Shown here in pieces: positions 42,223-54,451 of a DNA stretch of 64,000 bases. The stretch lies in IMG/VR virus record IMGVR_UViG_3300048672_000512, positions 1 to 64,000 of that record. One strand, given 5' to 3'. Every line of letters begins with the position of its first letter. Within the stretch, counting starts at the first letter, position 1. This stretch comes from a virus. The notes beneath the pieces are model-generated. The model was not told where the DNA came from, searched no databases, and saw only the letters and a list, made by a program, of their open reading frames with translations. Made by a program: the position numbers and the translations under genes.

Positions 42223-42922
42223 TCCGCGTGCTAGTCTCTGCAAAGCTCCACTGTTCTACGGCAAAGAACTGGAAGGATTCTCGCAAGGAGAATACACGGT
42301 TTTCGTAACGGACATTCGCTACCTTTTGGAAAACGAAAACCTTGTTACTAGCGCAGCGTGGCTAGCTCACAGCTGCCTTCCGTCTAACGTTCGCTACCTA
42401 CATCCTTACCAGTGGCTGCACAGGCTGTACTTAGGTGCGGGTGAGCTATCTGATATTTCAATCAGCGACTTGCATGATCTGCTGACTTCTGAATATATAG
42501 CAGTTGTCAAGACACTAGTCGTAGAAGCTACAGCTGAGTGGTATCTAGCAAACGCGGCAGAGCTTAAGCATCTAGTGCAGGAGTTCAACTGCTCAAGTGC
42601 AAACAGAAGCGCAGCTCGCAGCCGATACCGTACAACCACAAAGCTTCAGTTTGAGTTTGTAGTTACCACAACAATGATAGGCTCTGGTGGCAGGTTTATA
42701 ACCGACTGTACTGAAAAAGAGTATGTAGCTGTTAAACACCTGCAAGACAGCTTTGAAGCCTGCAACGTATCTTTCTACTACAAAGTAGACGCGTGTAACG
42801 TAGTTGTTATCTCTATCAGAAACTCACTAGCAGGAAATACAGCAGTTAGGCTTAGTTCTGTGGGTGGCAAATACAGCAATGACGTGGACTTGACACCATA
42901 CATCGATGACATGAAAAGATGA
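42170..42922 (+). CDS. Unknown protein inside the deazaguanine cluster, about 250 aa
   Basis: The ATG at 42170 has GGAGG at 42160-42164, so I choose it over an upstream GTG. The protein is helical in its first 140 residues (DIRYLLENENLVTSAAWL; AEWYLANAAELKHLVQEF) and beta-rich after residue 155. No family is recognised. It overlaps the transglycosylase start by 4 bases, so it is probably translationally coupled to it. Confidence 0.65.
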   Translation: MNSVPPATVQELLPMASDPRASLCKAPLFYGKELEGFSQGEYTVFVTDIRYLLENENLVTSAAWLAHSCLPSNVRYLHPYQWLHRLYLGAGELSDISISDLHDLLTSEYIAVVKTLVVEATAEWYLANAAELKHLVQEFNCSSANRSAARSRYRTTTKLQFEFVVTTTMIGSGGRFITDCTEKEYVAVKHLQDSFEACNVSFYYKVDACNVVVISIRNSLAGNTAVRLSSVGGKYSNDVDLTPYIDDMKR

Positions 42923-44247
42923 ACAAAAAAGAAAAGGAAGAGCTGCTACGCTCCGGTGTTGGGTATTACCTAGCACCTGCCTGCATAGATAGAATACTGC
43001 CATCGCTTATCAAAGAGGTTGCAGATGGGTCAACAGAGTTGACAGCGTCAACGCAGAAAGAAGGGGCGCTAGCTAAGTACCACCTAACGATGCCTGGAAA
43101 GAGTCTGTATATTGCTTCAGACTCTTACGCTTTGCGAAACACACAGCTTCTGAAATCAAAGAACTTCCACAACTGGCGAGCATTGTCCGACTCACCCTTT
43201 GGTCTGATAAATCACTTTGATAGTCCAGATCGGATTGCAGGTTTCCTGAAGTCTACCAAGTTGATTCTTCAGGACTCTGGTGGTTTTCAGATGGCTACCG
43301 GAAAGACAGACTTTGTGTGTCCTGAGTACGTTCTGGAAAAGCACAGAAACAACGCAGACATCGGAGTGACACTGGATATTCCGATCTACCCGTTCACGCA
43401 TGCTATAACAGCAGAGACAATACCAAGAGTTGCGTCAGTCACTGAAAGAACGAACCGATACTTTCTGAAGTCTGGCTATAGCAGCTTCATGAATCTGAAT
43501 CATGGAAGAAACATCAAGGAGCGTCTGAAGTGGATGGAGAGCACTCAGAAAAAGGCTCCGGGTGTCGCTCTATGCATCGGGGGTTTCATCAGCAACAATC
43601 GCAGAAAGGTGCTACCCAAAGCGTTTGCTGCAACGGTTGTCAAGCTCATTCAAGCGTCTGGGTATAGATACTTTCATGTTTTGGGTGTTAGTACAAGTTG
43701 GCAACAGATCATCCTAGCTTCAATAGCGCACAGGTATAAAGTGCTGATAACCAGCGACAGCACATCCTGGCTTACACTAGCGCGACGCGGCTGCTTGATA
43801 ACGCCTAACTATGACGTGTATCAGCTTCCAAAGTCAAAGCCTGGTCACAAGACAGACAAGCTTTTGAACTGCGTGTGTCCTGCTTGTTCCATCTTTCAGT
43901 ACGAAGCTTTGTACTCGCACAACACGCGGTTTGCTCTTGTGCACAATTTGCTAGCAGCAGACCGAATTGCTTCTCAAATCAACGCAGTTTTTGCTGGCAA
44001 TCCAGACCTGTCTGTAGACTGGGAGTCCAGTCTTGTGAAAGAGAACATGAAAGGCGTTGACGCCTACATAAACGGCGAACGTGTATGGAAGGACACAGAC
44101 GAACTGAAGACCGGAACAACCAAAATTCGAGAGTCGCTGTTCAGCAGCAGCGAAGACTTTGTGCATGCAGATCTGGCAACACAGAAGGCTTCCCTGAACA
44201 GAATTTTGACAGCATACGACAAGTTCTTTGCAGAAAGAGGAATCTAA
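42919..44247 (+). CDS. dpdA: DpdA/TGT-type guanine transglycosylase, 442 aa
   Basis: The protein shows the TGT-fold signatures. LQDSGGFQ carries Asp119. ITSDSTSW carries Asp280. A zinc site is formed by Cys318, Cys320, Cys323 (CVCPAC) and a downstream His (LVHNL). LDIPIYPF and CIGGFIS line the base pocket. tRNA TGT enzymes exchange guanine for preQ bases. Phage relatives called DpdA act on DNA and insert 7-deazaguanines. The QueD/QueE context in a phage favours DpdA. Asp280 as nucleophile and the zinc ligands align with the known enzyme by position. It overlaps the upstream gene by 4 bases. Confidence 0.85.
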   Translation: MNKKEKEELLRSGVGYYLAPACIDRILPSLIKEVADGSTELTASTQKEGALAKYHLTMPGKSLYIASDSYALRNTQLLKSKNFHNWRALSDSPFGLINHFDSPDRIAGFLKSTKLILQDSGGFQMATGKTDFVCPEYVLEKHRNNADIGVTLDIPIYPFTHAITAETIPRVASVTERTNRYFLKSGYSSFMNLNHGRNIKERLKWMESTQKKAPGVALCIGGFISNNRRKVLPKAFAATVVKLIQASGYRYFHVLGVSTSWQQIILASIAHRYKVLITSDSTSWLTLARRGCLITPNYDVYQLPKSKPGHKTDKLLNCVCPACSIFQYEALYSHNTRFALVHNLLAADRIASQINAVFAGNPDLSVDWESSLVKENMKGVDAYINGERVWKDTDELKTGTTKIRESLFSSSEDFVHADLATQKASLNRILTAYDKFFAERGI

Positions 44248-44248
44248 C

Positions 44249-45463
44249 ATGAGCAAGATGTTTTACGTCGGTCTGGAGCGCTATCAGTCTCGCTACAGCT
44301 ATGATCTTGAGAATTGGACGCGCCAAGCCTGTGGTGAAAACTTTCCGCTTGAATTCGTTTCTGTTGGAGACAGCAAGTCGCTACACGCAATCAGCAACGG
44401 TCAGGTTCTTGACGCGTGTATTCGACCGCTACACGCGCTGATGCAGATTTCTGAGTTGATTCAATACGTGCAAGACGGAAGTCTAACTTCCGACGATCTG
44501 ATCTTCTTTGAAGACATGTACCATCCTGGCTTGGATGGTCTAGCTTACGCTCTTGCTCTGAAACGCGTCAAGCCACTTATCGTAGGTCGCTGCCTAGCGC
44601 AGACAATCGATCCAGACGATTTCACGTCAAACCATCCGGTGCTGCGCAAGTGGATGCCCAAGTATGAAAAGATGGCGCTTGACATCTTTGACGTACTGTT
44701 TGTTGCATCGCATGAAATGGTGAGCTTCATGCGAGCGGCTGGTTGGAACGCGCACGTGCTTGTTACCGGTCTTCCATTCAGCACAAAGTGTGTACGTGAA
44801 GTTGCAAACTGCAATCCTGATGGTATGCAGCCTGAAGGCTTTCACTCGCGCAAGCAGCGCGTGGTGTTTGCTTCGCGTCTTGACTGGGAAAAGCAACCCG
44901 TCTTCTTCCTTGAGGTTGCAAGAACAGTGCGTAAGATAGCACCGCATATCGAGTTTGCTTTCTTATCAGGCAAGCCGTGGTCAAGCAACAGACGGAGCAT
45001 TGAAGTTGAGATCCGCAAGGATATCAATGACGGTCTGGTTTCCATGTACGACAACCTTAGCAAGGAAGCGTACTACGATATTCTAAAAGACTCGCGTGTG
45101 CTGTTCAATTGCGCGCTGCAAGACTGGGTTTCAAACACGGTGTCTGAAGCTGATGCTCTTGGCTGCAATCTGGTGTTTCCTGCCTACCGCTCTTTTGTTG
45201 AGTTGTTTGTGGAGCGACAGTCCTGCCTGTACACACCTTGGAATGTAAAACAAGCAGCGGACGCGGTAATCGTAGCTTGTTGCAAGCCGGATGAAAAGAT
45301 CGGAAGTACGGCCGATATGATGTCAGCAATGACAGCTAGCAGCATGACACAACTTGCTGAGCTACTGCAAGATCATATTCAAGGAGAAGGCTTTTCGCAT
45401 GGAACTACGGTTGCTGACCTTGACAGGATGCATTTTAACCGAGCAGACTGGAGCTACACATGA
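44249..45463 (+). CDS. GT-B glycosyltransferase
   Basis: The ATG at 44249 has GAAAGAGG upstream and follows the dpdA stop by one base. The C-terminal half is typical of glycosyltransferase family 4/1: FASRLDWEKQPVFFLEVA, then EFAFLSGKPW, LVSMYDNLSKEAYYDILK, and ALQDWVSNTVSEADALGCN, the nucleotide-sugar-binding E-x7-E type site. The N-terminal half is a Rossmann-like domain with FFEDMYHPGLDGL. No membrane or signal segment is seen, so it is cytoplasmic. Its place between dpdA and queE suggests glycosylation of a modified base in DNA. Confidence 0.8.
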   Translation: MSKMFYVGLERYQSRYSYDLENWTRQACGENFPLEFVSVGDSKSLHAISNGQVLDACIRPLHALMQISELIQYVQDGSLTSDDLIFFEDMYHPGLDGLAYALALKRVKPLIVGRCLAQTIDPDDFTSNHPVLRKWMPKYEKMALDIFDVLFVASHEMVSFMRAAGWNAHVLVTGLPFSTKCVREVANCNPDGMQPEGFHSRKQRVVFASRLDWEKQPVFFLEVARTVRKIAPHIEFAFLSGKPWSSNRRSIEVEIRKDINDGLVSMYDNLSKEAYYDILKDSRVLFNCALQDWVSNTVSEADALGCNLVFPAYRSFVELFVERQSCLYTPWNVKQAADAVIVACCKPDEKIGSTADMMSAMTASSMTQLAELLQDHIQGEGFSHGTTVADLDRMHFNRADWSYT

Positions 45464-46311
45464 TTCCTATCTATGCAGATACAAATGTAGGGCCGAAGTT
45501 CTACACGCGAGCCGATGCGCTGCTTGTACGCCACACGTTCTTCACTATTCAGAGTGAAGGTCCATTCTGCGGGCGGCCTGCTTTCTTCATTCGCCTGGGA
45601 GGATGTAATCTTGGCGACAAGTCCAAGTACTGTTCTTTCTGTGACTCGGATTTCAGAGCAGAGCATTCCACGTATCAAACCTACCAAGAATTGCTTGACA
45701 AGATTCTTGAAGTAAGGGCGCCGCTTGAGTATGACCCGCTTATCGTGATCACGGGCGGTGAGCCGTTTCTGCAGGCTATACAGCTTCAGCGTTTTGTACG
45801 GCACTTGCATGAAAACTTGGACTGGGTTGAAATTCAATTTGAGTCCAACGGAACAATGTTTTCGCACATCCGCAGCCTACTAGCGCAAGCTGTCTACAAC
45901 TCCGTGTCTGTAGTCGTGTCTCCAAAAGCTGCAATGACGGATGATGGCTTACACTTCACGGGCGACCCTGGAGCTTCCTTCACCGACGCTGAAGAATCAG
46001 ACAGCGCATCTGAAGAAACCTGGTTTATTGCAGACAACCTCTATTACAAGTTTGTGGTTTCTGCAGATCCAACTTCAAAGCATAACCAGTTGCCTGCATG
46101 GGTAGACAGGATTCCGCCAGAGAAGGTTTACATATCTGCTATTGCAGAGTACAGGCGTGAACTGAAGCCTGGAGAAACCGCAAACCTGTGGGATGCGACT
46201 CTGATTGATCAGGCGAGTACTTCCAAGAACTACCAATATGCTGCTGAACTTGCAATGGAGAAAGGATTCAACCTGAGTGTACAGAGTCACCTTCTTTGCT
46301 CAATAGAATAA
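45460..46311 (+). CDS. queE: QueE, 7-carboxy-7-deazaguanine synthase
   Basis: The N-terminal segment FFTIQSEGPFCGRPAFFIRL is characteristic of QueE. The radical SAM cluster is CNLGDKSKYCSFC, a Cx8Cx2C spacing. VITGGEPFLQ is the SAM-binding GGE motif and FESNGTMF a further family motif. The reaction turns carboxytetrahydropterin into CDG, from which host or phage QueC makes preQ0. The start overlaps the stop of the glycosyltransferase (ATGA). QueC and FolE are not in this window, so they are elsewhere or come from the host. Confidence 0.9.
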   Translation: MIPIYADTNVGPKFYTRADALLVRHTFFTIQSEGPFCGRPAFFIRLGGCNLGDKSKYCSFCDSDFRAEHSTYQTYQELLDKILEVRAPLEYDPLIVITGGEPFLQAIQLQRFVRHLHENLDWVEIQFESNGTMFSHIRSLLAQAVYNSVSVVVSPKAAMTDDGLHFTGDPGASFTDAEESDSASEETWFIADNLYYKFVVSADPTSKHNQLPAWVDRIPPEKVYISAIAEYRRELKPGETANLWDATLIDQASTSKNYQYAAELAMEKGFNLSVQSHLLCSIE

Positions 46312-46436
46312 TGTATCAAGGATACCAAAGAAAGACAGACAGAAGGTTCTGTCTTGCGTGTGGATGCAACCGTTGGCATTTCAAAACCGAAAATGGCAAT
46401 TGGTATTGCATCGTGTGTTTCCGACTCTTAACCTAA
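46311..46436 (+). CDS. Small zinc-ribbon protein, 41 aa
   Basis: The ATG at 46311 overlaps the QueE stop (TAATG). The 41 residues include FCLACGCNRW and WYCIVC, two CxxC pairs about 17 residues apart that could form a zinc ribbon. It follows the deazaguanine genes and ends 12 bases before the next gene. Translation is supported only by position, coupling and the cysteine pattern. Confidence 0.5.
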   Translation: MYQGYQRKTDRRFCLACGCNRWHFKTENGNWYCIVCFRLLT

Positions 46437-46448
46437 GCGGGACGTCAA

Positions 46449-46814
46449 ATGATCAAGAAGATTTCAACCATGCTACTTCTGTGCGCTACAGTTTCACTAG
46501 CACCAGTTGTGCAAGCTGCAGAGGTTTCCTCAGATATCAATCTGCGCCCTATTGTTAGTACGGCTAGGGGCTTGGGTTATCTGCTTGGCACAAATGAAGA
46601 CGAGCGCAAGCTGTTTTTCGGTTACCTGTACGGAGCTTTAGGCATGGGGAACCATGTATTCTTTTGTCTTCCGGAAACTCCATCGATAAAGAGTATGGGG
46701 CTATTTGCAGTGCGTGCCTTTAACTCCATCCCAGAAGACAAACGGGACGTAGTAGAGGCAGCAGACGCTCTAGCTGTTTATCTGGCACTTCGATACAAGT
46801 GCACAAAGGCGTGA
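46449..46814 (+). CDS. Secreted Rap1a/Tai-like protein, 121 aa
   Basis: The N-terminus MIKKISTMLLLCATVSLAPVVQAAE is a classic signal peptide with an AxA cleavage site. The mature part has FFGYLYGALGMGN, FFCLPETPS and a C-terminal ALRYKC. This fits the small Cys-paired periplasmic Rap1a/Tai immunity-type fold. A phage copy would act in the periplasm, for example in superinfection exclusion or neutralising a toxin. The family match is by eye. A strong terminator follows. Confidence 0.6.
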   Translation: MIKKISTMLLLCATVSLAPVVQAAEVSSDINLRPIVSTARGLGYLLGTNEDERKLFFGYLYGALGMGNHVFFCLPETPSIKSMGLFAVRAFNSIPEDKRDVVEAADALAVYLALRYKCTKA

Positions 46815-46822
46815 ACCTTGTG

Positions 46823-46855
46823 AAGGCTCTGTAGATAACTCTACAGAGCCTTTTT
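46823..46855 (+). terminator. Strong terminator before the polymerase gene
   Basis: AAGGCTCTGTAGA pairs with TCTACAGAGCCTT around TAAC, a 13-bp stem with a T5 run. The next start codon is only six bases further on. Confidence 0.9.
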
Positions 46856-46860
46856 AACTT

Positions 46861-49365
46861 ATGACCATGTTTACCGCCTACTTTGAAACTGGACAGCTGC
46901 GCTACCGTAGTGATCTTGAAGTCCTAAACCTTTCTGAGGTGGAAGACTTCTACAAGCTAGTGCCAGTATGTTCTAGAAACTGGAAGTCCTCCGAGTTCCG
47001 TCTTCTGGTTGTTGTGGAAGCTGTAGATCGTCAAGACCTGAAGACAGGAAAGCTTCTGTCTATGGACCTTGAAAAGGAGCGCGGTTCCTCCTACTACGCA
47101 AACACAATGACTGCACTTCTACCTGGGCTGCTTGACGCCTCATGGAAGATGTACACAGACTGGCTTGCAGTAGACAATGAAACACCTGAAGTTTCTGAAG
47201 TAGCTCTTGGTGTTGTCAATTTCAACGCTGCAAAGACGTACACGCTTGAGCCTACAGCAAGAAAGGCGATGCACAAGAAGTTTGCGGATCGTGTTATACA
47301 CGTGATCGATAGCATGAAACCCACGCATGTCTTTGTGTGTGGAGACACTGCTACCGTCAACCTGTTGGAATTGCTATCCGAACAGGATGTTCCTCACTGC
47401 GAAGTGAAGCGTGGCTGGGTTTTTGACCTAACGCACAAGAACCACAAGTTCAAGCTGGTTCCATCGCTGGATCTTGAAACGCTGTACAACCCAAAGGCTA
47501 ACGAGTCTGCAGATGACGACGACGGCGACTCAGACATGGCGGACAAGTACGCAACTGCAGATCTGCTGTACTTTGTAGGTCGCAACCTTGTAAACCTGTT
47601 TGCTGGACGGCACCTGTACTCTCTTAAGAGGCTGCGTCCAAAGGCCGTGTATGTAGACACCGTGGAACAGTTTGACAAGGTCATGGACCTTGTTGAATCT
47701 CCGGACGTTGAATATGTTGGCACAGACACGGAAGGTGCTAGCCTGAATGTAGTGACCAACAAGATATTTTCTGTGCAGTTTGCTGTAGACACAAAGGTTG
47801 GCTATGTCATACCGCTGTTGCATCCAGATACGCCGTTTGATGGAGAAGAGCTGAAGTATGTTTTCAAGCGACTTCGGAAGTTCTTTGGTGCTACCAAAGA
47901 GGCAAGCCTGAAGACGCTGGTGTACATCAACGGCAAGTTTGACCTGCGCTTTCTACGTGTGCAACTAGGCATTCCTGTCATTCTGCATCGCACCTATGAG
48001 GTTAACGCCGGCGAACAGCTTCTGGATGAAAACATTGGCTTGTTTGGTGGTGCTGATTCTGGAGGTCTGCGCTTTCGCAAGGATAACGACAAGGTCCGCA
48101 CCTCGTATCAAGGCCTCATGAATGCTCTGTGCCTGTACGAGAACGACGCTTACTACAATCTGCAGTTTTCAAAAGAAGACCGTGGAAACATGGGTGCGCA
48201 ACCGTTGAATGATCCAGACGTTCTCTACTACTGCGCGCATGACTCTGTAGCTGTCTTAGCCATGGCACGCATGCAGATACGTAGAGCTAAACATACATTC
48301 GTGCGTCCGAACTTTGACAGCAAGAAGCTGGTTCCATATTACAAGTATTTCATTCGGCACGTTGTTCTACAGATGGGGGCTACGGTTCAAGGTCTTTCCT
48401 ACATGGAGCAGAATGGCTCGCCCATTGACCTTGAATACCTGACCATTCTTGCTGGAAAGAAGTCACCTTTGCTTGCTGAAATCAATCAGCTGAACAACGA
48501 CATGCGGGCCTTCCCTAGCGTAGCTGCAACAGAGAAGCTGCTGTTGAAGTCTATGGGGCGCTCCGGTGGTGGTTTGCTTGGTTCCGTTGGAACTGCTGGC
48601 ATGTTCGACATATCTAAGCGGGATCACTTGCACAAGCTGTTCTACGAAGTGATGAAGCTTAAAGTGGTGTCGCATACAGGCGGTGGTGCCGTAGCAATCG
48701 ACAAAGAGTTCATAAACACCTACAGCGCGGATTACAAGGAAGTAGCAACCTTTGGTCAGTACACCAAGGTAACGAAGCTGATGTCAACCTACGTCAAAGG
48801 GTGGTTGAAGAAGATTCAAGTTTCGGTAGACGACCTAGCTAGAAGTGTTCTGAGTCCTGGCTTTGGATTCTTTACCATTGTCACTGGACGCCTGAACAGT
48901 TTCAAACCTTCTTTGCAGAACGTACCGTCACGCGGAGGTACGGCAAAGATAATCAAGCGAATGTTTCGAGCACCCAAGGGTTTTCTTAGCGTCAATTTCG
49001 ATTACAGCGCGAATGAAATCCGTGGCGGCGCTATCCTTGCAAAGGATGATAAGCTAGCCGGAGCTTTTCAAGATGGTATCGATCTACGTAAACAGTGGAT
49101 TGTAAAACCTTCAGCTGAACTTGCAGCCAGTCTAGCAACGCGCGGTGACGTCCATATTCAGAACGTCAAACGCCTGTTTGGTGTTTGGGTTGCAAAGTCC
49201 GACCCTCGCCGTAATGCCATTAAGGCAGTTGTGTTCGGTCTTATGTATGGAAAGGGTGCAGGAACCCTCGGTAAGGACTTGAAGAAGGACGCTCTGAATG
49301 AGGCTATGGATAAGCGTCGCAGTATCGTCAAACAGATACGGGAACTTGAAAAAGAAGTAAGCTGA
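46861..49365 (+). CDS. polA: Family A DNA polymerase, N-terminal piece (exonuclease + motifs A and B)
   Basis: This 834-residue protein has an N-terminal region of about 250 residues with HVFVCGDTATVNLLELL, loosely like uracil-DNA-glycosylase folds. A 3'-5' exonuclease domain follows (Asp289/Glu291 in GTDTEG; YINGKFDLRF; YYCAHDS). Then come the polymerase palm and fingers. Motif A is VNFDYSANEIRGG with Asp714. Motif B is RRNAIKAVVFGLMYG with Lys788, Phe792 and Tyr796. The protein ends in a charged helix (KRRSIVKQIRELEKEVS). Motif C is missing and is supplied by the gene at 50413. No ribosome-binding site is visible between the terminator and the start. Confidence 0.9.
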   Translation: MTMFTAYFETGQLRYRSDLEVLNLSEVEDFYKLVPVCSRNWKSSEFRLLVVVEAVDRQDLKTGKLLSMDLEKERGSSYYANTMTALLPGLLDASWKMYTDWLAVDNETPEVSEVALGVVNFNAAKTYTLEPTARKAMHKKFADRVIHVIDSMKPTHVFVCGDTATVNLLELLSEQDVPHCEVKRGWVFDLTHKNHKFKLVPSLDLETLYNPKANESADDDDGDSDMADKYATADLLYFVGRNLVNLFAGRHLYSLKRLRPKAVYVDTVEQFDKVMDLVESPDVEYVGTDTEGASLNVVTNKIFSVQFAVDTKVGYVIPLLHPDTPFDGEELKYVFKRLRKFFGATKEASLKTLVYINGKFDLRFLRVQLGIPVILHRTYEVNAGEQLLDENIGLFGGADSGGLRFRKDNDKVRTSYQGLMNALCLYENDAYYNLQFSKEDRGNMGAQPLNDPDVLYYCAHDSVAVLAMARMQIRRAKHTFVRPNFDSKKLVPYYKYFIRHVVLQMGATVQGLSYMEQNGSPIDLEYLTILAGKKSPLLAEINQLNNDMRAFPSVAATEKLLLKSMGRSGGGLLGSVGTAGMFDISKRDHLHKLFYEVMKLKVVSHTGGGAVAIDKEFINTYSADYKEVATFGQYTKVTKLMSTYVKGWLKKIQVSVDDLARSVLSPGFGFFTIVTGRLNSFKPSLQNVPSRGGTAKIIKRMFRAPKGFLSVNFDYSANEIRGGAILAKDDKLAGAFQDGIDLRKQWIVKPSAELAASLATRGDVHIQNVKRLFGVWVAKSDPRRNAIKAVVFGLMYGKGAGTLGKDLKKDALNEAMDKRRSIVKQIRELEKEVS

Positions 49366-49398
49366 GCTACCAACCCAAGAAATCACACGGAGAGTAAG

Positions 49399-50412
49399 AT
49401 GCCAAATGCAGGAAGTCAAACTAGTCAGACTAGTCACGATGTAACGATACGCAAGATGTTGGATGGGTGCGAGCTTCTTGTAGACGCTTACAGCCTGACT
49501 TGCGTGGATCCAGTCGTACCGTCGCCGCACGGAGCCTCCTATATGTTTGTGGATGGCACGTGGGTAGGCGCTAGTACAAGCATAACCGGAACCGTTGGAC
49601 GCAAAGCGCGTGTTATTCCACACCAAGGATCAGCACCGCCGCGTTCAAACATCACAACAGAAGTCCTTGCAACAGGAGCAAATACAAACTGCACCGTTGA
49701 AGTATGTATTCCAGGTCAGCTATGGTGGCATGGTCAGAGCATAGAGTTTGCTATTGAACCGTTTTCAGTTCTTGTTCTATCAATGACTGGTACTGGAAAG
49801 TGCGATCTGAGAATCACTGGAAGTGGCTACCAGTCCGTAACAAGCGGGCTTGGTGGCTCTGCTCGCTACAACGTATCTGCAAACAATCCACGAATCACAG
49901 ACATTCGCTCCGGCCCAGCTGTTCATACGTTCACTGCGGGTCAGGCTGGTATGGTGATTGTTCTGTGCTATGACACAATGCTGATAGTGGGACCACCAAC
50001 AGCACCTGCGGGCACGATAACGCATAGCTTCCAGCCAGTAAGCTCCAGCACATACACTGGATATAAAGGCGCTGCGTCATCTACTACTGTCAAGACGGAA
50101 GACAAGGTAAAGATCAACCTTGATAAGCTACCGTCGCATATTAAAGACAGGTATAACGCTACTATTGTTAGAAAGCTGCAAGAGTACATAACAGCGTACG
50201 AGACTGGATCTGGAATTACGCTTGTGCCAAATACCATGTCAGTAACGCAGAGTAAAGATGACCCGCCTCGCACGTTTCATGCTTCCTTTCGTTCTCATGG
50301 ATACGACAAAGAAGTGTTCAATGGACTAGACGCCTTTCTTCTTGTGAAGGGTTATGCAGGAAGTAGATACGACGTTGCTTCCTCCCTGATAGATCTTGAC
50401 TTTGAGGTGTGA
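49399..50412 (+). CDS. Beta-rich structural-type protein lying between the polymerase halves, 337 aa
   Basis: The N-terminal 40 residues are polar with an SQTSQTS repeat. The middle is Gly/Thr/Ser rich with strands such as EFAIEPFSVLVLSMTG and KCDLRITGSGYQS. The C-terminal 110 residues (IKDRYNATIVRKLQEYI) are alpha/beta. It carries no nuclease or intein motif, so it does not look like a homing element. GGAG lies seven bases upstream. Its stop codon is directly followed by the ATG of the polymerase C-terminal piece. A virion protein or polymerase-associated factor is possible. Confidence 0.7.
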   Translation: MPNAGSQTSQTSHDVTIRKMLDGCELLVDAYSLTCVDPVVPSPHGASYMFVDGTWVGASTSITGTVGRKARVIPHQGSAPPRSNITTEVLATGANTNCTVEVCIPGQLWWHGQSIEFAIEPFSVLVLSMTGTGKCDLRITGSGYQSVTSGLGGSARYNVSANNPRITDIRSGPAVHTFTAGQAGMVIVLCYDTMLIVGPPTAPAGTITHSFQPVSSSTYTGYKGAASSTTVKTEDKVKINLDKLPSHIKDRYNATIVRKLQEYITAYETGSGITLVPNTMSVTQSKDDPPRTFHASFRSHGYDKEVFNGLDAFLLVKGYAGSRYDVASSLIDLDFEV

Positions 50413-51354
50413 ATGACAACCGAAACAGAGTCACCTAAAGCAAAACTCGCAAGGCTGCGCACCGAGCTGAAAGACATAGACAGCAAGATAGAAGAGATTG
50501 AGGCAAAGGATTGGAAAGCGTTTGCGCAAGAAACCGTTGAAAAGTTCTATGGTGAGTTTGACGCTACGCATCACTATCTGGAAAACTGCGCTGACCACAT
50601 TCTGACAGACATGCACATCATGTCTCCAGTCGGGCGACGACGTAACATGTGGCGAGTTCTTACCGGGCGTCCCGGTATTCTTGCAGCTGCGCAGCGTCGA
50701 GGCAAGAACGCTCCGATTCAAGGCTTTGCTTCCGAGCTTGGTTGTGCAGCGGGTACGCTCATTATTGAGGAGCTTTATCTCTTTCTTCGACGCACACGTA
50801 AGTGGAATTGGCAGTTTCTGAATGACGTTGGTTTGTCTGTGATCGGCTACCTTCTGTCTCTGTACAACCGAGCGGTTCATGACGCTAACTATTACACGGT
50901 TCGCTACGAAACCATGATTCCACACATTCATATCATGCAGCACCAAGCCACCTACGGCGTAGCTCGCTGGTATGAAGAAAACTTTGACATCAAGTTCAAC
51001 GTAGACCCGGAAATCGAACTTGACTTCTCGGCTACTGCCGACAAGACGCACACATGGAACTGGGCGCTACACGGAACCGATGGCATAAAGACCAGTGGTG
51101 ACAGCCTGGATACGTGCCTGTTCAATTCTCTTGTTGATCAAGTGAAGCTGAAACAGATCACCAGCTCCAAGGAACTCAAGAGAATTGTGAAGGTGATCTG
51201 TGCACCCTGGGAAGATCAGGAAATGCGTGACTACCTGAATCAGAAGTACCCACTGTTGGGTGTCACTGATCTTGATACACAGATTGAAGGTTTCCTTGAA
51301 TCGTTCAACGCAAAGATTCAGGCCTTCTGTTCCGAACCAAAGAACTTTGAATAA
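50413..51354 (+). CDS. polA: Family A DNA polymerase, C-terminal piece (motif C)
   Basis: The 313-residue protein starts with a long charged helix (LARLRTELKDIDSKIEEIEA). It continues with sequence typical of the polymerase I palm: EKFYGEFDATHHYLENC, SPVGRRRNMWRV, KNAPIQGFASELG and AVHDANYY, in which His156 and Asp157 are motif C. These elements normally follow the O helix in one chain. The two pieces must associate to give activity, perhaps through the charged helices at the break. The C-terminal 110 residues are unassigned. Confidence 0.85.
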   Translation: MTTETESPKAKLARLRTELKDIDSKIEEIEAKDWKAFAQETVEKFYGEFDATHHYLENCADHILTDMHIMSPVGRRRNMWRVLTGRPGILAAAQRRGKNAPIQGFASELGCAAGTLIIEELYLFLRRTRKWNWQFLNDVGLSVIGYLLSLYNRAVHDANYYTVRYETMIPHIHIMQHQATYGVARWYEENFDIKFNVDPEIELDFSATADKTHTWNWALHGTDGIKTSGDSLDTCLFNSLVDQVKLKQITSSKELKRIVKVICAPWEDQEMRDYLNQKYPLLGVTDLDTQIEGFLESFNAKIQAFCSEPKNFE

Positions 51355-51365
51355 GGAACCATGAA

Positions 51366-51536
51366 ATGTCTTTTCTTGACAACCTTCTCGGGTTAATCTT
51401 CCTCTCCGTTTTCTTTACGGTTTGGACGCTAGGCTTTGTAATCGCCAAGGGTTTTGCGGCATTCGCCTGTATTTTCCCGCCGTATGCCCTCTACGTTGTT
51501 GTGGAGTACGCATGGAATCATGTCCAGCTTTGCTGA
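51366..51536 (+). CDS. Small membrane protein, 56 aa
   Basis: ATG at 51366 opens a 56-codon frame with a long hydrophobic core (LLGLIFLSVFFTVWTLGFVI). AAGGAA lies upstream. It overlaps the start of the primase by 17 bases. Such small hydrophobic phage proteins are often overlooked. Function is unknown. Confidence 0.5.
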   Translation: MSFLDNLLGLIFLSVFFTVWTLGFVIAKGFAAFACIFPPYALYVVVEYAWNHVQLC

Positions 51537-52551
51537 TGTAATAATCAACCAGCTGGAAAGGTATGCAGGTGAAAAGAAGATTGGCACAAAGTTCTCTTTC
51601 ATTCTGTGTCCTTTCCATTCTGAGTCAACACCGTCTGGTCGCATACGTCACGACCCTTCAAAAGACGGAATAGGTAACTTCAAGTGCTACGGGTGCGGGC
51701 GCAGAGCCAGCTGGAATGAGATAGCTGCAGCGTTAGGCTTACAGCAATTCAAGTCTGCAGGCGAAACGCTAGATGGAAGCGTACCGCACATTGACACCAC
51801 AAGGTACAAGGAACAATTCCTAGGCACCAGCACAGCATCGAACGTAGAACATGAAGATCTTCTGATGTTTGATCTGAGCCATTCTCTAGCAGAAGAGCTT
51901 GGGTTGAAAGACAATCAGTGGAGAGGGTACGATATAGACTGGTTGCGTGAAGCCGTGCAAGCTCGAATCTGCTACGCAGTAAAGGCAGAGCGTCACTATC
52001 TGTGGCTTCCAGTGATGATCAACTCAGAGGTAAAAGGCTACATCAAGGCTCAGTTTCACAAACCGTACTCCAAGAAAGTGCCTTCGTACCTGAACGCTCC
52101 TGGAAGCTGGTCGCTGACACACGGATTATTTCCTTTCGATCTTGCAGTCAGCACGATGCGAGAGCTGAACAGGAAAACAATGGTGCTGGTTGAGGGTCCG
52201 CGTGACGCGCTGCGACTTGTTCACTTTGGCATTCCTGCTGTATGCATTCTTGGTACGCATTCGTGGACGGATGCTAAAAGCAGGTTGCTTGAATTTGCGG
52301 GTGTTGAACGCGTAGTTCTAATGATGGACGGTGACGATGCCGGGCGTAACGCAACGTACCTGCTAACTAACGGGCACTATCCAGAGTCACCAGAGCAGAA
52401 AGTGTTCAACGGATTGGAGTCCGTGTTTGATCTGAAGACAGTGCGCCTATGGAACTTTGATGTACCTGAAGACTTTCCTGAGAAAGCTTTCGATCCCGGA
52501 AACATGCCAACCTCGCTTTTGAGAAAAGTAAAAGCGAACATGCTTGTTTGA
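51520..52551 (+). CDS. DnaG-type primase, zinc finger and Toprim domains
   Basis: The protein is 343 residues from ATG 51520. A CHC2 zinc finger (CPFHSES, then FKCYGCGRR) opens the sequence. The Toprim fold follows: MVLVEGPRDALRL (catalytic Glu), ILGTHSWT and VLMMDGDDAGRNA (Asp-x-Asp). No helicase domain follows, so the helicase partner is a separate gene. The enzyme makes RNA primers for lagging-strand synthesis by the split polymerase just upstream. Confidence 0.85.
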   Translation: MSSFADVIINQLERYAGEKKIGTKFSFILCPFHSESTPSGRIRHDPSKDGIGNFKCYGCGRRASWNEIAAALGLQQFKSAGETLDGSVPHIDTTRYKEQFLGTSTASNVEHEDLLMFDLSHSLAEELGLKDNQWRGYDIDWLREAVQARICYAVKAERHYLWLPVMINSEVKGYIKAQFHKPYSKKVPSYLNAPGSWSLTHGLFPFDLAVSTMRELNRKTMVLVEGPRDALRLVHFGIPAVCILGTHSWTDAKSRLLEFAGVERVVLMMDGDDAGRNATYLLTNGHYPESPEQKVFNGLESVFDLKTVRLWNFDVPEDFPEKAFDPGNMPTSLLRKVKANMLV

Positions 52552-52552
52552 A

Positions 52553-52564
52553 ACTGTGAATGCT
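52553..52564 (+). promoter_or_regulatory. ACTGTGAATGCT motif
   Basis: Third exact copy of the motif, directly after the primase stop codon and 52 bases before the next start at 52616. Confidence 0.5.
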
Positions 52565-52615
52565 TTTAGCAGTAATAACCACTTGCACAATTGAAACCAC
52601 TGAAAGGTAAACACC

Positions 52616-52924
52616 ATGAACCAAGATCAAACTCAAGAACAAGCAACTGACGAGATTCCTGCAAACTTGCTGGTGCTCGCTGAAGTGATGTACGGTGCAT
52701 ACTATAAAGAATCCGACTTGAAGGTTGTACCGTTTAGCGAGCTTACTCCGACACACCTTGACCGGTGGCTACGAACAGCAGAGGCCGCAGCAACGTTCGT
52801 GATTGGTAAAGTGTTTGAGGACGAGGAAGAAGTACTAGAAGCTACTCTGTCGGAAAACGCTGTAGACGAAGCCAATGTGGTTCCTGGTTGCGATAACAAC
52901 TGCCCAGGTTGCAGCTGCAAGTAA
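52616..52924 (+). CDS. Small acidic protein with Cys-rich end, 102 aa
   Basis: Helical, acidic sequence ends in CDNNCPGCSCK, a compact four-Cys cluster that could bind zinc or a metal cluster. GAAAGGTAA precedes the start. No family is known. The neighbours are small unknown genes between primase and ThyX. Confidence 0.65.
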   Translation: MNQDQTQEQATDEIPANLLVLAEVMYGAYYKESDLKVVPFSELTPTHLDRWLRTAEAAATFVIGKVFEDEEEVLEATLSENAVDEANVVPGCDNNCPGCSCK

Positions 52925-52934
52925 GGAGACACAA

Positions 52935-53429
52935 ATGAGCGAACACGAGAACGAGAACGATATCAGTGCTGAAGAAGGTTCTTCTCCACACTTTGAATAT
53001 GCTACAAACTTCCTGCGCATTGAACAGCAAAAAGAAGATCCTCTTGTGTACGAGGTCAGTTTCCTACCGGACCTGACAACGCGTCCGCATGTACACGGGC
53101 CTCTTCACTTCTGGCGAGAAGTAGTGCGTGCAATGCGAGAGCTTACTGGCGACAGTAGCTGGATCATTCGATATGCAAGTCAAATCGACGCCCAGAATGT
53201 GCCGGCTGCAAAGTCCTCGCATGCAAACACAGTGCTGCTTGACCTGATGGCCCCATATCGCAGTGTTGTCAAGGCCTTGCTTATCGGTGGAAAGGTGAAC
53301 TTGAGGATGTTGCCTCGTTCAGAACCTTACTTCTTCAAGTCTCGGGATGCTGTAAACGCAACGGCTAGCGCACGCCGTGCCTCTCGAAAGAACAGGCAGT
53401 CTCCTATCAATCAGCCAATTGAGGAATAA
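52935..53429 (+). CDS. Unknown protein, 164 aa
   Basis: The ATG at 52935 has AAGGAGA seven bases upstream, so it is preferred to an earlier in-frame ATG. The N-terminus is acidic. The middle contains HVHGPLHFWREVVRAMRELT and a Ser/Thr patch. The C-terminus is basic (ARRASRKNRQSP). Function is unknown. Confidence 0.65.
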   Translation: MSEHENENDISAEEGSSPHFEYATNFLRIEQQKEDPLVYEVSFLPDLTTRPHVHGPLHFWREVVRAMRELTGDSSWIIRYASQIDAQNVPAAKSSHANTVLLDLMAPYRSVVKALLIGGKVNLRMLPRSEPYFFKSRDAVNATASARRASRKNRQSPINQPIEE

Positions 53430-53434
53430 ACAAT

Positions 53435-53731
53435 ATGTTCAATATCAAAACTAGCAAGTGGACACTGACAGTTTCCACGTGCTATGTTGAATTTTCTTGT
53501 GACCTGCGTCAGTATTCGGATGAAAACGCATACACAGCTATTCGTACTTCTGATGTAGCTGCTGTCCAAGTAGAGAAGACTCAACAGCAAACGGTTGTCA
53601 TCAAAAGCAAGATGCCTGACCGCCAGATCAGGGTGACTTTTGACAGCGCTGCAGCAGCAGCAAAGTATGCTGCTTACATTTCAACTGCCATCTTCACTTG
53701 TATCTATCCACCAGACATCGATCTGACATAA
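53435..53731 (+). CDS. Unknown small protein, 98 aa
   Basis: This is a single beta-rich domain with two Cys in the first 25 residues and an Ala-rich helix (DSAAAAAKYAAYIS). It ends just before a terminator, so it closes the operon that starts near 52616. The family is not recognised. Confidence 0.6.
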   Translation: MFNIKTSKWTLTVSTCYVEFSCDLRQYSDENAYTAIRTSDVAAVQVEKTQQQTVVIKSKMPDRQIRVTFDSAAAAAKYAAYISTAIFTCIYPPDIDLT

Positions 53732-53745
53732 ACACGTAAGAAAGA

Positions 53746-53769
53746 AAACGGGGCTTCGGTCCCGTTTTT
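53746..53769 (+). terminator. Terminator with TTCG loop
   Basis: AAACGGG pairs with CCCGTTT around a GCTTCGGT loop, with a T5 end. It is a classic strong rho-independent terminator. Confidence 0.9.
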
Positions 53770-53785
53770 CACATCAGGAGTTCAA

Positions 53786-54451
53786 ATGAAATCAATCGCT
53801 GATGCGTATTCAGAGAAGGCTCGCATCCTTTCGGATGTCAACATTGCTATTGAAGCCGCCGTTCTTGGAAGCGAAAAGCTGCAAGCCGCAGTAGCAAGAC
53901 TCAAGGAAGTTCAACGCGACTACTTTGAATTGCTGATCGCTAAAGCTGACAAGCAGATTCCTCTAGACGTCACAGAGGAAACAACAATGGATCTTGCTGA
54001 CTTCATTCTGACGTCAAGCTGGATTCCTCAAATGGCGGATACACTGTTGCGTCAACGCAAGGCTGCGGCGAAAAAGCGAGCACGCAAGTTGTACTCAAGC
54101 TGTTTTCCAGACGCAATCGGTAACGAGTCAAAACGCGATCTTTTCGAGTTGCTGCGCAAGGCAACTCGCAACGGCGATCTTGAGCTGATAGCAATGGTCG
54201 AAGAGAAGCTTGGCGTGCTTAAAGATGACTCAGAGGTCTTTGTTGTGATCGAAGCTATCGATGCTCAAGTGCGCTTGATGCAAGGCTCAAAGCTGTTTGA
54301 CATTTGCCGTGGCTTCTACAGTGGAAGTCCCGCAGCAACAGATAGCTTGCTTAGTTTCGTCCTGGAAACTACAGCAGACATTCAGGCAAAGCTTCCGCTG
54401 CCAGTTGTAAAGTCTTCAGGTTTTGTGAATACCGAAGGTCACGGTTTTTAA
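53786..54451 (+). CDS. Unknown helical protein, 221 aa
   Basis: The protein is helical throughout (AARLKEVQ-type charged helices), with a basic patch RQRKAAAKKRARKLYSS near residue 90. It could bind nucleic acid. It begins the operon leading to ThyX. The family is unknown. Confidence 0.65.
   Translation: MKSIADAYSEKARILSDVNIAIEAAVLGSEKLQAAVARLKEVQRDYFELLIAKADKQIPLDVTEETTMDLADFILTSSWIPQMADTLLRQRKAAAKKRARKLYSSCFPDAIGNESKRDLFELLRKATRNGDLELIAMVEEKLGVLKDDSEVFVVIEAIDAQVRLMQGSKLFDICRGFYSGSPAATDSLLSFVLETTADIQAKLPLPVVKSSGFVNTEGHGF

Follow-up and report, generated by a model that had tools for sequence, protein, structure and literature searches.

The window analysed here, a stretch of 64,000 nucleotides, is the first 64 kb of a virus record of 178,048 bases (IMGVR_UViG_3300048672_000512). 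It carries a family-A DNA polymerase in two open reading frames, the N-half and the C-half, with a further gene, M, between them. The features of the locus are as follows:

46861-49365, plus strand: N-half of the family-A DNA polymerase, 834 aa, with the 3'-5' exonuclease, palm motif A and fingers motif B (Pfam and PHROG)
49000-49002, plus strand: codon of the motif A catalytic aspartate (D714) in the N-half, an invariant column in the alignment with relatives
49210-49248, plus strand: motif B (O helix), the RRNAIKAVVFGLMYG region, FGLMYG, in the N-half, from the alignment with relatives
49288-49362, plus strand: hairpin arm 1, at the C-terminus of the N-half, aligned to BcepSauron (AlphaFold helix 746-772; heptad test p 0.044)
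49389-49394, plus strand: Shine-Dalgarno-like GGAGAG of M, from the sequence, with GGAG 6 nt 5' of the M ATG
49399-50412, plus strand: intervening gene M, 337 aa, without detectable homologue
50404-50407, plus strand: Shine-Dalgarno-like GAGG of the C-half, from the sequence, within the 3' end of M and 5 nt 5' of the C-half ATG
50413-51354, plus strand: C-half of the family-A DNA polymerase, 313 aa, with motif C (Pfam DNA_pol_A and PHROG)
50413-50514, plus strand: hairpin arm 2, with which the C-half begins; it aligns with BcepSauron helix 779-801 and with the beginning of the L047 ORF (heptad test p 0.001)
50875-50883, plus strand: motif C Val-His-Asp (V155-D157), including the catalytic aspartate, in the C-half, invariant columns in the alignment with relatives

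As the original prediction had it, M sits inside a split polymerase and abuts the C-terminal polymerase gene without a gap: the N-half, M and the C-half all lie on the plus strand, relatives with a whole gene align across the junction, and the TGA stop of M (50410-50412) directly adjoins the ATG of the C-half (50413). The gap between the N-half and M is 33 nt long and open. All three ORFs are in frame 1, which would occur by chance in 1 of 9 cases. Because TGA is the commonest stop among the large ORFs of the window genome (47 of 93), it is not recoded. A scan for promoters and terminators gave no more signals than in shuffled sequence.

Together, the two halves make up one polymerase. The N-half matches the Pfam DNA_pol_A profile from position 26 to 232-233 (E 2.8e-29), the DNA_pol_A_exo1 3'-5' exonuclease and a PHROG DNA polymerase (E 1.4e-56). 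The C-half matches positions 236-308 of the same DNA_pol_A profile (E 9.8e-6, which alone is below the curated cut-off) and also PHROG DNA polymerases. The core is complete over both chains, with the Pfam profile ending at 233 in the N-half and restarting at 236 in the C-half and with relatives aligning to the C-terminus. Motifs A, B and C are present and shared out over the two chains, as are both catalytic aspartates, one to each chain. BcepSaruman, BcepSauron and Motura each have one uninterrupted polymerase gene, 35-38% identical, that aligns over the junction (the C-half is 36-38% identical to Saruman and Motura), and numerous IMG/VR relatives have a single uninterrupted gene aligning to the N-half plus the C-half in the same way. 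Since the 178-kb record, which is possibly incomplete, yielded no second polymerase of family A, B or C, the split enzyme is probably the replicative polymerase of the phage.

The break sits between motifs B and C, where a two-helix hairpin on the surface of the fingers makes its turn. In an AlphaFold model of the uninterrupted BcepSauron polymerase (mean pLDDT 82), whose best matches among solved structures are Klenow fragment and Bst polymerase I, this hairpin is unbroken, residues 746-772 and 779-801 forming its helices and 773-778 its turn. The end of the N-half and the start of the C-half both map to that turn, and each chain retains its own hairpin arm. The heptad pattern of arm 2 is clean in the window (shuffle p 0.001) and is also seen in the related contig L047 (p 0.018), and that of arm 1 is weaker in the window (p 0.044). 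A helical insertion of variable length, after motif B and before the next core helix, occurs in Saruman, L013, L015, L016, L018, L019, L021, L031-L035, L040 and L041, and there is none at the hairpin site in Motura, L011, L029, L030, L037 and L048. Among the whole-gene relatives, the hairpin is unbroken in Saruman, L015 and L033-L035 and missing in Motura, L011, L029 and L048. As these relatives either keep the hairpin unbroken or are without it, the site is dispensable.

The split is shared by L047 (IMG/VR 3300047548_000297). Its C-half is a separate ORF that has the same start point and the same hairpin arm from its first residues, and that is 45-47% identical to the C-half of the window. 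An assembly error does not account for the split, because the C-half begins at the identical point on this independent contig. The gene immediately upstream in L047, which overlaps the start of the C-half, is not M; its product has a KilA-N match in Pfam (E 3e-5, just above the cut-off) and a transcription regulator match in PHROGs. The contig ends within the KilA-N gene and the N-half lies beyond its end, so we infer a gene order of N-half, KilA-N gene and C-half. Neither M on the L047 contig nor a KilA-N gene elsewhere in the window genome was found, and a comparison of M with the L047 KilA-N gene (BLAST E 0.008 over 70 residues) is unconvincing given the number of comparisons. In a tree of the C-halves, the window and L047 are sisters with moderate support (86/84), and the pair falls within a 99/98 clade with L011, L031 and L048, all of which have whole polymerase genes. 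The split itself is real; it is probably inherited and does not depend on the gene filling the gap, and the break looks like an old, tolerated slot with changing contents.

M is an intact ORF whose codon usage is ordinary for the window genome and whose GC3 is low (9th percentile), as against the 84th and 92nd percentiles for the N-half and the C-half. The homologue search proposed with the original prediction found none at E<=10 in 50,697 phage records, and none besides M itself in its own genome and 23 related records. Searches of Pfam, NCBIfam, PADLOC and PDB sequences gave nothing, PHROGs gave nothing credible, and peptide-pattern scans of IMG/VR and bacterial genome contigs, which detect close relatives only, returned only M itself. 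The function of M is probably separate from DNA synthesis.

Two further observations concern the surroundings of M. An 11-base direct repeat (ATGCAGGAAGT) lies near both ends of the gene, at 49406-49416 and 50354-50364, in the same frame, with a chance of about 0.5% in the stretches compared. It is the sole candidate for target-site repeats flanking M and was rejected as such, since both copies (49406 and 50354) lie within M and would not rejoin the polymerase. In most relatives a conserved gene of ~210 aa (Xb), which is not in Pfam or PHROGs, is found near the polymerase, mostly between polymerase and primase (for example L001:9341-9991, with 25 other matches in related loci); no Xb match was found in the window genome. 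The idea that M is a relocated Xb, derived by tandem duplication and loss, was dropped because there is no similarity: M scores -4.0 bits against the Xb profile, and 135 of 500 shuffles score as high.

Mobile elements that commonly interrupt genes were searched for at the locus. M gives no hit to a LAGLIDADG, HNH, GIY-YIG or PD-(D/E)XK nuclease family at E<=1 with Pfam or NCBIfam, and no credible one with PHROGs. Rfam gives no match at E<=1 in 44000-54000, so no group I intron core was detected, and the end of the N-half and the start of the C-half are polymerase hairpin sequence that matches neither Intein_splicing nor Hint. The absence of a homing-nuclease or intein motif from M, asserted earlier from the sequence, is thus supported by searches of Pfam, PHROGs, NCBIfam, PADLOC, PDB sequences and Rfam; a divergent endonuclease or splicing domain, or a self-splicing intron around the gene, would have spoken against that assertion, and none was found. 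The accompanying claim, that no usual mobile element explains the split, holds for M as its present occupant but not necessarily for the origin of the split, as relatives L017, L050 and L042 illustrate. In L017 (IMG/VR 3300039447_000026), a DUF7487 gene with matches to PHROG homing endonucleases splits the polymerase at a point between motifs A and B (L017:5959-10255). The L050 polymerase (L050:3166-6837) has an in-frame HNH_3 and AP2 insertion between motifs A and B, near the loop used in L017, with no intein splicing match, and the family-A polymerase of L042 (L042:5215-9786) has an intein with a LAGLIDADG domain at motif A. In L018, a homing endonuclease lies next to the polymerase. Because such insertions occur in the polymerase genes of relatives, an endonuclease origin of the window split is plausible by analogy, with no remnant seen at the site itself.

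Unlike the polymerase halves, gyrA and gyrB of the window genome do match intein profiles. Gyrase B (G000:C1:167856-171749 and 171746-173920; L027:3856-9920) is encoded by two overlapping ORFs with apparently three inteins that have HNH-type domains. The middle one is apparently a natural split intein, whose N part ends the first ORF and whose C part (HN before TAKGARDKR) opens the second. Gyrase A (G000:C1:174464-177274; L027:10464-13274) has an in-frame intein with an HNH_3 domain, ending VVHN before C. Within the window, a TGT-like gene (a weak match that falls just short of the Pfam cut-off) lies at 42919-46311 together with a weak match to glycosyltransferases and a radical SAM gene resembling QueE, a combination that hints at a possible 7-deazaguanine DNA modification.

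Several explanations of M and of the split can be set against these results. According to the original prediction, M looks like a beta-rich virion protein, which on this view landed in the polymerase. Its Ser/Thr/Gly-rich sequence and its low GC3, as in structural genes, would suit such a protein, and a composition classifier for structural versus other genes of the genome gives it 0.68, a score reached or exceeded by 37% of structural and 7% of non-structural genes. This classifier separates the two groups only weakly, however (AUC 0.69), M has no homologue among virion proteins and is located among replication genes, and the AlphaFold model from its single sequence is unusable (pLDDT 33.6). 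The beta-rich virion protein is therefore not supported, and we consider a structural role unlikely. Lower again in our estimate is the idea that M serves the polymerase as a third subunit or dedicated regulator, placed between the halves for the joint synthesis and assembly of three chains. Such a role would agree with the way M is tied to the C-half by position and ribosome-binding site, and with its fully intact codons and native codon usage, but M is missing from every relative searched, and L047, with the same split, has the KilA-N gene beside its C-half instead.

We rate at the same low level the proposal that the split was made by M itself, as a homing endonuclease that has since diverged strongly or decayed. 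The endonucleases, HNH/AP2 insertion and intein in or beside the polymerase gene of L017, L018, L050 and L042 lend it some credit, whereas the lack of any endonuclease family matching M at E<=1, its intact ORF and its ordinary codon usage argue the other way. Rejoining of the halves into one chain, by a group I intron, a split intein or read-through of two TGA codons, is by far the least probable of these explanations. The shared frame and the open 33-nt gap would permit it, and the intein signatures in gyrA and gyrB, one of them apparently a split intein, demonstrate that inteins occur in this phage. Nevertheless, nothing in Rfam matches the locus at E<=1, both halves are polymerase sequence right up to the break and lack intein fragments there, and TGA ends about half of the large ORFs (47 of 93). 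The frames, moreover, differ in L017 and L047, and a common frame has a 1-in-9 chance.

We therefore favor a two-chain family-A polymerase in which M is cargo, carried in a slot that a homing endonuclease may have opened, and we give this reading a probability of roughly 70%. The N and C chains would be made from one operon and would reassemble via the antiparallel hairpin and the common palm into an active enzyme. An insertion, most likely a homing endonuclease as in L017, may have broken the gene at a dispensable loop in an ancestor common to the window phage and L047, and the original insert would since have been lost or replaced, leaving M in the window and the KilA-N gene in L047 as presumed cargo in the slot. 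Because the ribosome-binding site of the C-half lies inside M, translation of M and of the C-half is probably coupled. Against this proposal, the hairpin may have been gained with the split and not before it, because most close relatives in the 99/98 clade are without it. More tentatively, the turn of the hairpin may be a lasting cargo slot, inherited within an essential polymerase, in which unrelated genes replace one another, are sure to be expressed and are not easily lost; we put this at somewhat less than even odds. A stronger version, in which M is a third polymerase subunit, is less likely and ranks below the cargo-slot reading. The locus adds a natural two-chain family-A polymerase, as predicted here, whose joining element would be well defined, namely a hairpin interrupted at its turn, and so puts a natural design for a split polymerase on offer. 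It also suggests that the element behind a gene split can disappear while the split persists as a carriage site for other genes.

Polymerase splits around an endonuclease or an orphan gene have been described in phages before. In the Methylophilales phages MEP401 and MEP402, a family-A polymerase is encoded by two ORFs around an ORF without known homologues (PMC10580990; OP830906). This resembles the window, with its polymerase of the same family split around an orphan ORF, but the MEP401 break lies just before motif A, its insert is 77 aa long, and the two splits are independent. The replicative polymerase (gene 43) of Aeromonas phages 25 and 44RR is likewise in two chains. Unlike that of the window, it belongs to family B, and the insert is a seg endonuclease gene in phage 25 or an untranslated stretch in 44RR (PMC2988022). 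The two chains of the split gp43 of phage 25 co-purify and are active, and the endonuclease may have entered a pre-existing split (PMC2988022). Pseudomonas phage MIJ3 also has a polymerase gene broken by an intervening ORF, in this case a split family-B PolB that carries intein fragments where it is broken and whose parts are separated by an HNH endonuclease (PMC6892783). In L017, a polymerase of the same family is split by an inserted gene, although at another loop (motifs A-B) and by an endonuclease-like insert. L047 shares the C-half start and the hairpin arm but has a KilA-N gene where the window has M. The closest named relatives, BcepSaruman, BcepSauron and Motura, have the same domain order, yet their gene is continuous, with the hairpin intact (Saruman and Sauron) or absent (Motura). 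Within the literature searched, what seems to be new is a break at the turn of a lineage-specific hairpin, together with an apparent exchange of the gene in the gap.
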